The notes beneath the pieces are model-generated. The model did no database searches. It was not told where the DNA came from and saw only the letters and a list, made by a program, of their open reading frames with translations. From Jatrophihabitans cynanchi (GTDB taxonomy: Bacteria; Actinomycetota; Actinomycetes; Mycobacteriales; Jatrophihabitantaceae), in contig NZ_CP097463.1 in assembly GCF_027247405.1 (NCBI RefSeq), forward strand, positions 372,001 through 436,000: a stretch of 64,000 nt of DNA. The letters are read 5' to 3'. The position numbers and the translations under genes are program-made. Positions 374 to 9,649 of this stretch are shown piece by piece (the stretch's first letter is position 1; every line of letters starts with the position of its first letter).

Positions 374-406
374 GAGCTCCCCCGCAAGCGGGGAGGTACC
401 CCCAGC
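374..406. repeat. Short GC palindrome between infB and the ylxP-like gene
   Basis: The hairpin CCCCG-CAAG-CGGGG is flanked by CT and AG and followed by GTACCCCCAGC. On the minus strand it begins CTGGGGGTACCTCCCC. It sits in the 106-base infB/ylxP-like gap. The half reading GCTCCCCCG on plus also begins the inserts at 7372 and 8372, so it may belong to the same family of small palindromic elements. It could equally be a local attenuator; there is no T run. Confidence 0.5.
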
Positions 407-6333: not shown

Positions 6334-7575
6334 TCAGATGTGAGTGCCGTGGAACGGTGCACGGTCGGTGAGCAGGGCCAGCTCCAGCCGGCGCAGCGCA
6401 TCCGGCGAACCACCGGCCCGGCCGGCCCGGGCCAGGGTCGCCAGCCGGGTACCGCCGAGGCAGATCGCGCCGAGCGCACCGACGCCGAGCTCGATGTCGG
6501 CGACCCGCTCGGTTCGGGTGCAGGTGGCGCCCTCCGGGCCGCCGCGCAACAGGTACCGCCCGTCGCCGAGCAGCGGGTCGGTCACCTGCAGCACGACCTC
6601 GACCTCCAGCGGGTAGCTGCGGCCGCCGAGCAGCGCGGCCACGTCCAGCGGCCGGACCCACATGCCGTCGCCGATGTGCAGCGTCTCGACCCGGCGCGGG
6701 TCGGTGAGCAGGTGCGGCAGCGGATCGTCCAGCGGGACTGCGTAGCTGGTGATCGTGCCGACGAGGTCCATGCCGAGGAGCGTCTGCCACAGCGCGGCGT
6801 GCGCCTCCGCCGTGACCGGCACGTAGTCGACCAGCTGGCACTCGTGCCGCGGGTCGCCGTCGCCCCAGTCGGGCTTGATCCGGTACGAGACGTAACCGTC
6901 CGGGTGAACGAGATGGAACAGCCCGGACGCGCCGCGGCGCTGGTACTCGCGATCGAGCAGCAGGAACTGCCAGCGCCGCTCGTCCCGGCCCAGCGCGCCC
7001 GGGGTCGTCGCGCGCCACCGCTCGTACAGCTCCGGCAGCACGTCGCGAGCCCGATCGGTGCTGAGCCGCCGCACCGCACCGGCGTCCACAGGGACCGCCA
7101 AGTGGCCGCGCAACCGGTCGATCGACGCGCGGCGCACCGAGGAGGCGACGCCGAAGCCGAACCGCCCGTAGATGCCTGCCTCACTCGCACCGAGGACGGT
7201 GGCGGCGTAGCCCTGCTCGGCGTGCGCACGCAGCTGGTGCTCGATCAGGGCGCGCAGGATCCCGCGCCGGCGGTGCGTGATCTCGACCGAGACCCAGGTG
7301 ATGCCCATGGCCGGGAGGTCGCCGCCGGGCACGGCCAGCTGCAGCGGCACCTCGGCACTGACCGCGACGATGCTCCCCCGCCGGCCAGGCACCCGTTGGT
7401 GAGCGCACCCCGACTCGCCGTCGACGGCGACCATGATCCGGGCCGGGTCGATGTCGAGTGCGGCGTCAGCCAGCTCCTGCGCGGAGTAGTGGAAGCCGAA
7501 GCTGGCCCCGTCGAGTTCGGCGACCGCGGGGAACTCCTCGACCCGCGCGCGCCTGATCCGGATGTCCACGGCCAC
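6334..7575 (-). CDS. Eis-like GNAT N-acetyltransferase
   Basis: About 413 residues with the layout of the Eis family: an N-terminal GNAT domain, a second GNAT-like domain and a C-terminal SCP2-like fold. The acetyl-CoA region reads GITWVSVEITHRRRGILRALIEHQL. The middle contains the typical GASEAGIYGRFGFGVAS motif. Known relatives acetylate aminoglycosides or lysines of peptides and proteins; the substrate here is unknown. I chose a GTG at 7575; a TTG at 7596 is also possible. Between MVAVDGE and SIVAV there is a stretch of about 13 residues, SGCAHQRVPGRRG, that does not look like the family. It coincides with a short repeat shared with the neighbouring ABC gene. Confidence 0.85.
   Translation of the reverse strand: MAVDIRIRRARVEEFPAVAELDGASFGFHYSAQELADAALDIDPARIMVAVDGESGCAHQRVPGRRGSIVAVSAEVPLQLAVPGGDLPAMGITWVSVEITHRRRGILRALIEHQLRAHAEQGYAATVLGASEAGIYGRFGFGVASSVRRASIDRLRGHLAVPVDAGAVRRLSTDRARDVLPELYERWRATTPGALGRDERRWQFLLLDREYQRRGASGLFHLVHPDGYVSYRIKPDWGDGDPRHECQLVDYVPVTAEAHAALWQTLLGMDLVGTITSYAVPLDDPLPHLLTDPRRVETLHIGDGMWVRPLDVAALLGGRSYPLEVEVVLQVTDPLLGDGRYLLRGGPEGATCTRTERVADIELGVGALGAICLGGTRLATLARAGRAGGSPDALRRLELALLTDRAPFHGTHI
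7372..7413 (-). repeat. Short element inserted in frame in the Eis-like gene
   Basis: A 42-base, 14-codon segment encoding SGCAHQRVPGRRG plus one residue. Aligned codon by codon with the segment at 8372-8413, about 69 percent of bases agree over 45 positions, and about 78 percent over the first 27. It interrupts the expected strand between the substrate-side Asp-Gly and the IVAV segment. One arm, GCTCCCCCG, is kept; the opposite arm is lost. Confidence 0.55.
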
Positions 7576-7609
7576 CGAGTCTGCCCGAGCGGGCAAGCCG
7601 ATTCACCGC

Positions 7610-9649
7610 TCAGCCCACCGGCACCGGTACCTCGCCATCGAGGTCGCCGGGCGCCTGCGCGAACTGCACCTGGTACAGGTCGTAGTAGGCGCCGCGCGCG
7701 GCCAGCAGTTCCTCGTGGGTGCCTTGCTCGAGGATGCGGCCGCCGTCCATCACCAGGATCAGATCGGCATCGCGGATGGTCGAGAGCCGGTGCGCGATCA
7801 CGAAGCTGGTGCGGTTGGAGCGCAGCGCGGCCATCGCGTGCTGCACCAGCAGCTCGGTGCGGGTATCGACCGAGCTGGTCGCCTCGTCGAGAATCAGCAG
7901 CGACGGCTCCGCGATGAACGCGCGCGCGATGGTCATCAGCTGCTTCTGCCCGGTGGACAGGTTGCTGCTCTCCTCGTCGATCACCGTGTCGTAGCCGTCC
8001 GGCAGGGACTGGACGAACCGGTCGACGAAGGCGGCGCGCGCCGCGGCCAGGATCTGTTCCTCGCTCGCCCCCGGGCGGCCGTACGCGATGTTGTCGCGAA
8101 TCGTTCCCCCGAACAGCCAGGTGTCCTGCAGCACCATGCCGATCTCGCCGCGCAGGTCGTCGCGGCGCATCGTGGTGATGTCGACTCCGTCCAGGGTGAT
8201 CCGGCCGGCGTCCAGTTCGTAGAAGCGCATGATCAGGTTGACCAGCGTCGTCTTGCCCGCACCGGTGGGCCCGACGATCGCGATGGTGTGTCCGGGCTCG
8301 GCGACCAGCGAGAGGTCCTCGATCAGCGGCGCGTCGGGCGAGTAGCTGAACGCGACGTGCTCGAACTCGACCCTCCCCCGTCGGCCAAGCCCTTGTTGAC
8401 GGGGGGAAGCCCACTCCGGCTCGTCGACCGGACGGGCGGGGTGGACGGGGTCGGGCGTCTGCTCCGGCGCGTCGAGCAGGTCGAACACCCGCTCCGCGGA
8501 CGCGACCCCGGACTGCAGCAGGTTGGCCATCGAGGCGACCTGGGTGAGCGGCTGGGTGAACTGCCGGCTGTACTGGATGAACGCCTGCACGTCACCGAGG
8601 CTCATGGACCCGGACGCCACCCGCAGCCCGCCGACGACCGCGATCGCCACGTAGTTCAGGTTCCCGATGAACATCATCGTCGGCATGATGATGCCGCTGA
8701 TGAACTGGGCGCCGAAGCTGGCCTGGAACAGCTCCTCGTTCTTGCGGTCGAACTCTGCCTGCACCTCCCGGTGCCGGCCGAAGACCTTCACCAGCTCGTG
8801 CCCGGAGAACGCCTCCTCGATCTGCCCGTTGAGCTGCCCGGTGTTCTTCCACTGCGCGATGAACTTGCCCTGCGAGCGCTTGGCGATCGCCTTGGTGACG
8901 ACCATCGACACCGGGATCGTGACCAGCGCGATGACCGCGAGCACCGGGGAGATCACGAACATCATGGTGACCACGCCGACCACGGTGAGCAGCGAGGTCA
9001 GCAGCTGGCTCATCGTCTGCTGCAGGCTCATCTGGATGTTGTCGATGTCGTTCGTGACGCGGCTCAGCAGCTCGCCGCGCGGCTGCCGGTCGAAGTAGGG
9101 CAGCGGCAGCCGGTTGATCTTGTCCTCGACGTCCGAGCGCAGCCGGCGCACCGCGGTCTGCACCACGTCGTTCAGCAGCCAGCCCTGCAGCCAGGACAGC
9201 AGGCTGGCGCCGACGTACACGGCGACCGCGAGCAGCAGCACGTGCGCGAGGTCGGTGAAGTCGATCCCGACGCCGGGCGTGGGGTGCGCCGTGGCCAGCA
9301 GCTGGGCACGGTTGTCGTCACCGCTCGCGCGAGCCTCGGCGATCGCCTGCTGCAGCGAGATGCCGCTGGGCAGCCGGCTGCCGAGGAACCCGGTGAAGAT
9401 GACGTCGGTGGCGCGACCGAGGATCTTCGGGCCGATCACCGCCAGCGACACGCTGCCGACCGCGAGCAGCAGCACCAGCAGCACCTTGGCGCGTTGCGGC
9501 CTGAGCCGGCCCACCAGCCGCTTGGCGGACGGGCCGAAGTTCATCGACTTCTCCGCGGGCATCCCGGCCGACATCCACGGCGGGCCGCCGCGGCGTGCCT
9601 CGGCGCCCTGGATGCGCTTCGGGACGACCTTCCCGTTCGGCGCGCTCAC
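7610..9649 (-). CDS. ABC exporter subunit, ATPase plus membrane domain (MdlB-like)
   Basis: A 679-residue half-transporter. Six membrane helices (about 60-370) precede the ATPase. The ATPase has Walker A GPTGAGKTTLVN, signature LSTGQKQL (Thr instead of the usual Gly), Walker B LLILDEATSSVD and the switch His in AHRLST. It starts at a GTG overlapping the stop codon of the upstream ABC gene (GTGA), so the two make a heterodimer of the MdlAB/LmrCD type. Such pairs export lipids or drugs. An unusual insert of about 14 residues (EWASPRQQGLGRRG) sits in the linker just before the ATPase strand RVEFEHVAFSY. It is encoded by a palindromic repeat and is probably tolerated because it is in the linker. 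Confidence 0.93.
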   Translation of the reverse strand: MSAPNGKVVPKRIQGAEARRGGPPWMSAGMPAEKSMNFGPSAKRLVGRLRPQRAKVLLVLLLAVGSVSLAVIGPKILGRATDVIFTGFLGSRLPSGISLQQAIAEARASGDDNRAQLLATAHPTPGVGIDFTDLAHVLLLAVAVYVGASLLSWLQGWLLNDVVQTAVRRLRSDVEDKINRLPLPYFDRQPRGELLSRVTNDIDNIQMSLQQTMSQLLTSLLTVVGVVTMMFVISPVLAVIALVTIPVSMVVTKAIAKRSQGKFIAQWKNTGQLNGQIEEAFSGHELVKVFGRHREVQAEFDRKNEELFQASFGAQFISGIIMPTMMFIGNLNYVAIAVVGGLRVASGSMSLGDVQAFIQYSRQFTQPLTQVASMANLLQSGVASAERVFDLLDAPEQTPDPVHPARPVDEPEWASPRQQGLGRRGRVEFEHVAFSYSPDAPLIEDLSLVAEPGHTIAIVGPTGAGKTTLVNLIMRFYELDAGRITLDGVDITTMRRDDLRGEIGMVLQDTWLFGGTIRDNIAYGRPGASEEQILAAARAAFVDRFVQSLPDGYDTVIDEESSNLSTGQKQLMTIARAFIAEPSLLILDEATSSVDTRTELLVQHAMAALRSNRTSFVIAHRLSTIRDADLILVMDGGRILEQGTHEELLAARGAYYDLYQVQFAQAPGDLDGEVPVPVG
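8372..8413 (-). repeat. Short palindromic element inserted in frame in the ABC exporter gene
   Basis: A 14-codon insert whose arms CCCCCGTC (8375-8382) and GACGGGGG (8398-8405) are perfect inverted repeats around a 15-base centre. It lies in the linker before the ATPase domain. A related copy lies exactly 1,000 bases away at 7372 in the neighbouring gene, in the same orientation and reading frame. Confidence 0.65.

Follow-up and report, generated by a model that had tools for sequence, protein, structure and literature searches.

How do two adjacent genes for unrelated proteins come to carry 13 extra codons that resemble one another? The question arises in a 64-kb window of the genome of Jatrophihabitans cynanchi, hereafter the host (by "window" we mean the whole stretch analyzed, positions 372001-436000 of a 4,515,412-base, one-contig genome), where an Eis-like acetyltransferase gene and an ABC exporter gene lie side by side. 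Both inserts are, in our judgment, likely to be old copies of a 39-bp (13-codon) repeat that forms a hairpin, is dispersed through the genome, and behaves as a non-autonomous mobile element. Membership of this family is secure for the ABC copy and, judging from its sequence and position, probable for the Eis copy.

The relevant features are listed here in window coordinates; the scores come from two covariance models, R1 and R2, described in the next section.

6334..7596, minus strand: Eis-like GNAT N-acetyltransferase gene (PF13527, PF17668, PF13530)
7375..7413, minus strand: 39-nt (13-codon) insert SGCAHQRVPGRRG in the acetyltransferase domain, opposite a 13-residue gap in L038 and L039
7373..7415, minus strand: element copy (probable, and strongly diverged) within the Eis-like gene, AGTCGGGGTGCGCTCACCAACGGGTGCCTGGCCGGCGGGGGAG (R2 15.1 bits, E 0.13)
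7610..9649, minus strand: ABC exporter gene with membrane and ATPase domains (PF00664, PF00005)
8375..8413, minus strand: 39-nt (13-codon) insert WASPRQQGLGRRG in the ABC protein, within the linker that joins its membrane and ATPase domains, missing from 29 homologous loci (codon view)
8373..8415, minus strand: element copy in the ABC transporter gene, 43-nt model span, AGTGGGCTTCCCCCCGTCAACAAGGGCTTGGCCGACGGGGGAG (R2 40.3 bits, E 2e-7; R1 63.8 bits)
8375..8382, plus strand: hairpin arm CCCCCGTC of the ABC copy (perfect inverted repeat; family covariation)
8398..8405, plus strand: hairpin arm GACGGGGG of the ABC copy (perfect inverted repeat; family covariation)

Both inserts lie on the same strand in identical codon phase. 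A preliminary description of this DNA had the coordinates, strand, and frame of the two segments right, as well as the perfect arms of the ABC segment; its figure of about 69% identity over 45 positions was close to the 30/45 (67%) that we measured (30/43 over the 43-mers). Taken by itself, that identity could be due to chance: of 300 43-mers drawn at random from the window, 27 have a match of at least 30/43 elsewhere in the window. It is the wider family that makes the observation real.

The same description held that the two protein families normally lack these residues, and the homologues agree. The ABC residues are absent from all 29 homologous loci compared (L008-L036), and exactly the 13 Eis residues are missing from L038 and L039, the two closest homologues. 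Both places vary in length among relatives, with other extra residues in L008 and L024 for the ABC linker and in L041 and L043 for the Eis loop. Structure homologues align poorly in the region of the Eis insert. Tandem duplication of local ABC sequence was considered and rejected by eye, the upstream look-alike being out of register.

A family of 39-bp units in the host genome

A degenerate scan of a genome collection, from which host records were possibly left out, provided the starting point. It returned eight contigs. In two of them, from Prauserella alba and Streptomyces phytophilus, the match extended well past the pattern itself; the remaining six (L096, L097, L099, L100, L102, and L103) showed no match upstream, R2 gave nothing in them at E values up to 1, and they were set aside. 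When these two matches were combined with the window copies into a new pattern and 394 class genomes were scanned, it retrieved just the ABC copy plus one more copy in the host, located in an LpdA gene. Narrow searches modeled on the window sequences yielded nothing clear beyond the two copies, whether in the host or in 24 sampled genomes of its family (none other of its own genus); the reason is that these two rank with the most divergent copies, differing from the host consensus at 8 and 10 of 43 positions.

The covariance model R1, built from five seed copies (the two of the window, the LpdA copy, and those of P. alba and S. phytophilus), changes this picture. In the host it gives at least 24 matches with E below 3e-4, each covering all 43 positions (R1's own seeds account for three of them), and at the same threshold at least 4 in P. 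alba and at least 10 in S. phytophilus. These counts are lower bounds, as the best 150 candidates were scored per genome; on the same terms, six control genomes yielded nothing better than E 0.166. Weaker host matches, at E 0.004 to 1.4 among those fetched, include plausible ones (HsaA, MiaE-like). Rfam holds no credible family for the repeat, its two matches falling far below gathering scores.

R2 was built from 19 other copies and contains neither a window copy nor any of the five R1 seeds; even so, it recovers the ABC copy. Over the window, the Eis copy is its third-best match. A chance match of such a score must also fall, in register, on the 13-residue insert, and for this reason we regard the Eis copy as a probable member: it aligns with the ABC copy in the same register and lies exactly on that insert. 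Applied to 58 loci of relatives that had been fetched for other reasons, R2 gave one significant match (E 9e-6) and one at E 0.59. The former, which R1 had scored at only 0.032, falls in the ABC orthologue of G001, which of the relatives has the highest ABC identity. There the ATPase domain contains exactly 13 inserted residues, GGGTAADDGAAGG, at a site other than the host's. We regard this as the best single confirmation.

What does the unit look like? The host consensus over the 43 model positions is AGTGGGGGTCCCCCCGCCAATGAGGGCGTAGCCGGCGGGGGAG, and tandem arrays and empty sites define a repeating unit of 39 bp. Columns 11-18 pair with columns 34-41 in an 8-bp helix. Over 57 distinct aligned copies (43 columns), 95.7% of cells are paired, against 91.9% in shuffles, and the covariation score was reached by none of 500 shuffles; in the 19-copy set, 96.7% of cells are paired. 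The signal comes chiefly from columns 17/35 (C-G 46, G-C 7, U-A 2, A-U 1, other 1, so that 56 of 57 covary), with some from 16/36, and most other pairs vary little. The stem is supported by this covariation and not by folding energy: single-strand folding is modest for the ABC copy (z -0.94 on the minus strand, -1.58 on the plus strand) and not significant for the Eis copy (z 0.29 and 0.69).

Four of the six frames of the consensus are free of stop codons. The window copies are read in a frame that is closed in the consensus by TGA at columns 21-23; the codon there is CGG in the Eis copy and CAA in the ABC copy, and so both stay open. Loss of closed-frame hits through protein truncation may explain why these two copies are free of stops.

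A second short palindromic repeat, TGGGGGTACCTCCC(C)GCTTGCGGGGGAG, lies at window positions 377-406 (minus strand). It has three host places (L104, L105, and L106) with similar flanks, GCGCTG before and CTCATCGCG after, and the copy at L105 is less than 100 bases from a 39-bp unit at L151. R2 scores the window copy at 20.8 bits (E 0.0066), and this palindrome may be remotely related to the 39-bp unit.

Carrier genes and their filled and empty sites

In the host, 20 of the 24 clear copies lie within or at the edge of recognized genes. Besides the Eis and ABC genes, the carriers include an LpdA-type quinone dehydrogenase, monomeric isocitrate dehydrogenase, GatB (at the C-terminal end), a CCG-domain iron-sulphur protein, hydantoinase A, an M20 dipeptidase, piperideine-6-carboxylate (P6C) dehydrogenase, a flavin adenine dinucleotide monooxygenase, glycine dehydrogenase (GcvP), an MFS transporter, and the tail of FtsH (two copies). 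In FtsW the copy is at the first codon of the open frame and hence perhaps outside the gene, and in a PHP/DNA polymerase III alpha protein it lies on the N-terminal side of the domains. The four copies without a recognized gene are L139, L141, L151, and L153; a domain scan of L141, the only one of them scanned, gave no match.

Four further carriers are DUF222-HNH endonuclease paralogues, of which one was run against Pfam and three were assigned by common flanks. In these genes (L140, L143, L145, and L149, at host positions 1655004, 2218220, 581539, and 2907103) the element occupies the same site with near-identical flanks, and the DUF222-HNH family may itself help to spread it.

When the window is left aside, the frame that gives the peptide NGGPPANEGVAGG is the one in use at 10 of 14 clear, independent coding sites (P 3e-4 if the four open frames are equal). 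Small and glycine-rich as it is, this peptide probably forms a flexible loop. Other frames occur in the FtsH tail, the MFS loop, and the window copies. When carriers are aligned with solved structures, a 13-residue gap stands opposite the insert in glycine dehydrogenase and HsaA; the gap measures 12 residues in P6C (aldehyde) dehydrogenase, 12 in isocitrate dehydrogenase, and 10 in LpdA.

Empty sites at the nucleotide level come from Prauserella, in which five genes and their translations were aligned across seven genomes (P. alba is G430). In HsaA, G430 is filled, G438 has a 38-nt copy, G433 has a diverged stretch of the same length, and G434-G437 are empty. The valyl-tRNA synthetase (ValRS) site is filled in G430, G433, G435, and G438, empty in G434 and G437, and occupied by other residues in G436; the aligned piece is 340 bases long in G433 and G435 as against 301 in the empty genomes, and the G430 piece is 42 longer. 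FadD (six genomes, not G435) contains nearly three tandem units in G437, two in G438, one in G430, and none in G433 or G434, with other residues in G436; here, the G430 sequence exceeds that of G434 by 39 bases. One acyl-CoA dehydrogenase gene (four genomes) has roughly 1.7 to 3 units in G430, G435, and G437 and none in G434, whereas another (six genomes, not G434) has the unit in G430 only, the empty sites being variable. The tandem units in FadD and the first of these dehydrogenase genes are in frame. As for the junctions, the insert ends directly before GGGAGG in HsaA and GGGGGA in ValRS, and a GGGGG tract follows it in the G001 ABC gene.

Some individual copies deserve mention in their own right. 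Those of G438 in HsaA and FadD (L178 and L187) are one base short and shift the frame of these genes, which may reflect an assembly error at the GGGGGCGCCCC hairpin or broken genes. A weak host copy in HsaA (L160, E 0.054) and the P. alba HsaA copy (L098/L174) stand at about the same codon, though four of the seven Prauserella genomes are empty there; site preference, gene transfer, or common descent may account for this. In S. phytophilus, L171 (3021-3180 of its contig) holds four head-to-tail units with a 39-bp period, and L170 is a single open frame of 578 codons with two copies in opposite orientations.

The host, G001, Prauserella, and S. phytophilus all carry the unit. Allowing up to 3 mismatches, the consensus pattern matched 3 of the 394 class genomes, namely the host (23 places), G405 (4), and G289 (1), in a scan that misses diverged copies; the reversed control pattern matched one genome, once. 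We infer that G405 is the Prauserella genome G435, and the order common to it and the host is probably GTDB Mycobacteriales. Among plasmids (19 records) and phages (7) there were partial matches only, at E up to 10 and none covering 80% of the query, and viral contigs had none for two exact patterns.

How does the unit spread, and why does it persist?

We favor a non-autonomous element. Its copying would depend on a factor supplied in trans and would probably proceed via a hairpin of single-stranded DNA, with insertion on the 5' side of a short G-rich tract and no visible target duplication. Survival within coding sequence would follow from a length divisible by three, a consensus open in most frames, and a peptide that is small and glycine-rich. 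The preliminary description had proposed a small mobile repeat that enters coding sequence in frame, and this proposal gains support from the 24 copies, the filled and empty sites that differ by 39 bp, and the separate insertion in the ABC gene of G001; the inserted residues are absent from orthologues, and further copies exist in the genome. What the data support is a dispersed small repeat entering coding sequence in frame; its active transposition is putative.

It is important to set several points against the favored explanation. No target duplication is visible at the HsaA and ValRS junctions, the only two closely examined, and these are compared across species. No mobilizing enzyme has been identified: the Y1 transposase (PF01797) was not found in the host or S. 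phytophilus, other transposase families not having been searched. The same search gave no match in five of the seven Prauserella genomes or in three relatives, one match each in P. alba and G436, and matches in 5 of 14 control genomes, Escherichia coli among them. R2 is not wholly independent of R1, since its 19 copies were gathered with R1, which holds the window copies; under R2 the Eis copy does not reach significance on its own; and the empty sites of the host are known at the protein level only. Host copies differ from the consensus at 2 to 11 of 43 bases, and activity may accordingly be ancient. Finally, the tandem arrays and the G-rich targets could also have come about by slippage or recombination.

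This last point leads to the main rival, in which no enzyme is needed and a dispersing minisatellite spreads by ectopic recombination, template switching at G-tracts, and hairpin-prone slippage. The head-to-tail arrays with their 39-bp period, the G-rich junctions, the want of a visible duplication at the two sites, and the missing Y1 transposase of the host all suit it. However, slippage cannot make the first copies in new genes, and copies are found in more than 12 unrelated genes of one genome, with 20-base flanks that look unrelated save in the four DUF222-HNH paralogues and the tandem copies; the occurrence of the unit in G001, Prauserella, and S. phytophilus as well as in the host also counts against it. 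We judge this rival unlikely. Much less credit is due to a GTAG-type repetitive extragenic palindromic (REP) sequence moved by a REP-associated tyrosine transposase (RAYT). The consensus does contain GTAG (columns 28-31) besides a palindrome, P. alba has its one Y1 transposase, and intragenic REPs are known from the examples that PMC3733652 treats. Yet GTAG lies in the loop between the arms, not at the stem end, and is lost in the window copies; the two genomes with the most copies have no PF01797 match; and REPs are predominantly extragenic in the account of them in PMC3733652, whereas the 39-bp copies are mainly intragenic. A RAYT is an unlikely mover in the host, and as an explanation of the family the REP reading is very improbable.

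Could the inserts be ordinary, unrelated indels in variable loops, made alike by G+C-rich codon bias? The length variation at both sites, the chance-level identity of the pair, and the weak R2 score of the Eis copy would allow it; against this, the ABC copy was found at E 2e-7 by a model built without window copies, 24 clear copies compare with none in six controls, and exact 39-bp empty sites accompany a covarying stem. For the ABC copy this account is refuted, and it could still hold for the Eis insert alone; for the pair we give it the least credence of all. Only slightly more can be said for a domesticated peptide, kept for a useful property such as a flexible linker or an interaction tag. 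It draws on the bias toward the NGGPPANEGVAGG frame, but the carrier proteins are unrelated, the same site is filled in some Prauserella species and empty in others, and other frames are tolerated. Selfish persistence is more likely than peptide function.

A bolder formulation of the favored explanation is possible and, in our opinion, on the doubtful side: a minimal, protein-invading, selfish 39-bp hairpin, written 5' of G-tracts in housekeeping genes by an enzyme and transferred between distant actinobacterial genera, would constitute a previously undescribed class. If true, it would be among the smallest dispersed elements known that are adapted to life inside open reading frames. We found no description of the 39-bp family in the open-licence PubMed Central literature, core-sequence and peptide strings included. 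Whatever its class, the family provides an actinobacterial case of in-frame repeat invasion, with exact filled and empty sites, tandem growth, and carriers that are core enzymes (isocitrate dehydrogenase, glycine dehydrogenase, and valyl-tRNA synthetase). It also offers a natural set of 13-residue insertions for testing loop tolerance and protein change, and it poses the question of what moves a 39-bp hairpin.

Comparison with known systems

The Rickettsia palindromic elements (RPEs), the closest parallel in behavior, are not known to have a transposase of their own. RPEs are described, in the portions of PMC10969869 and PMC3733652 devoted to them, as palindromic and dispersed, many lying in frame in unrelated genes whose products are probably still functional. 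Rickettsia is the best-known case of proteins invaded in frame by short repeats, and intragenic REPs occur in certain other species, according to PMC3733652; a passage of the miniature inverted-repeat transposable element (MITE) review PMC10969869 calls in-frame protein invasion by short repeats conceivable elsewhere in prokaryotes. The 39-bp unit shares with RPEs the insertion into unrelated coding genes and the palindromic hairpin. It differs in being about a quarter of their length (the RPE section of PMC10969869 gives about 150 bp), G+C-rich, arranged in places in head-to-tail arrays, and found in actinobacteria, whereas Rickettsia is an alphaproteobacterial genus. In its behavior it is like an RPE, but its length keeps us from classing it as one, and it occurs in another phylum.

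The GTAG/CGTC REPs and REPtrons are comparable in size, REPs being palindromes of 20-40 bp, some of them intragenic and including cases in DnaE2 polymerase genes, in the REP section of PMC3733652. The short palindrome and the intragenic cases are held in common, and one host copy is in a PHP/DNA polymerase III alpha protein; in contrast, the 39-bp unit has no tag at the stem end, is mainly intragenic, and is found in a host without a detected Y1 transposase. MITEs measure 70-300 bp with terminal repeats of 15-30 bp, according to the summary in PMC3733652. Like them, the unit is short, non-autonomous, provided with inverted-repeat arms, and patchy between species, but its arms are only 8 bp long. 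Target duplications, which MITEs usually have, are not seen for the unit at the HsaA and ValRS sites. Minisatellites, lastly, resemble it in the 39-bp head-to-tail arrays of S. phytophilus L171, Prauserella FadD, and one acyl-CoA dehydrogenase gene. Unlike a minisatellite, however, the 39-bp unit is not confined to one locus, its 24 clear host copies lying mostly in unrelated genes.

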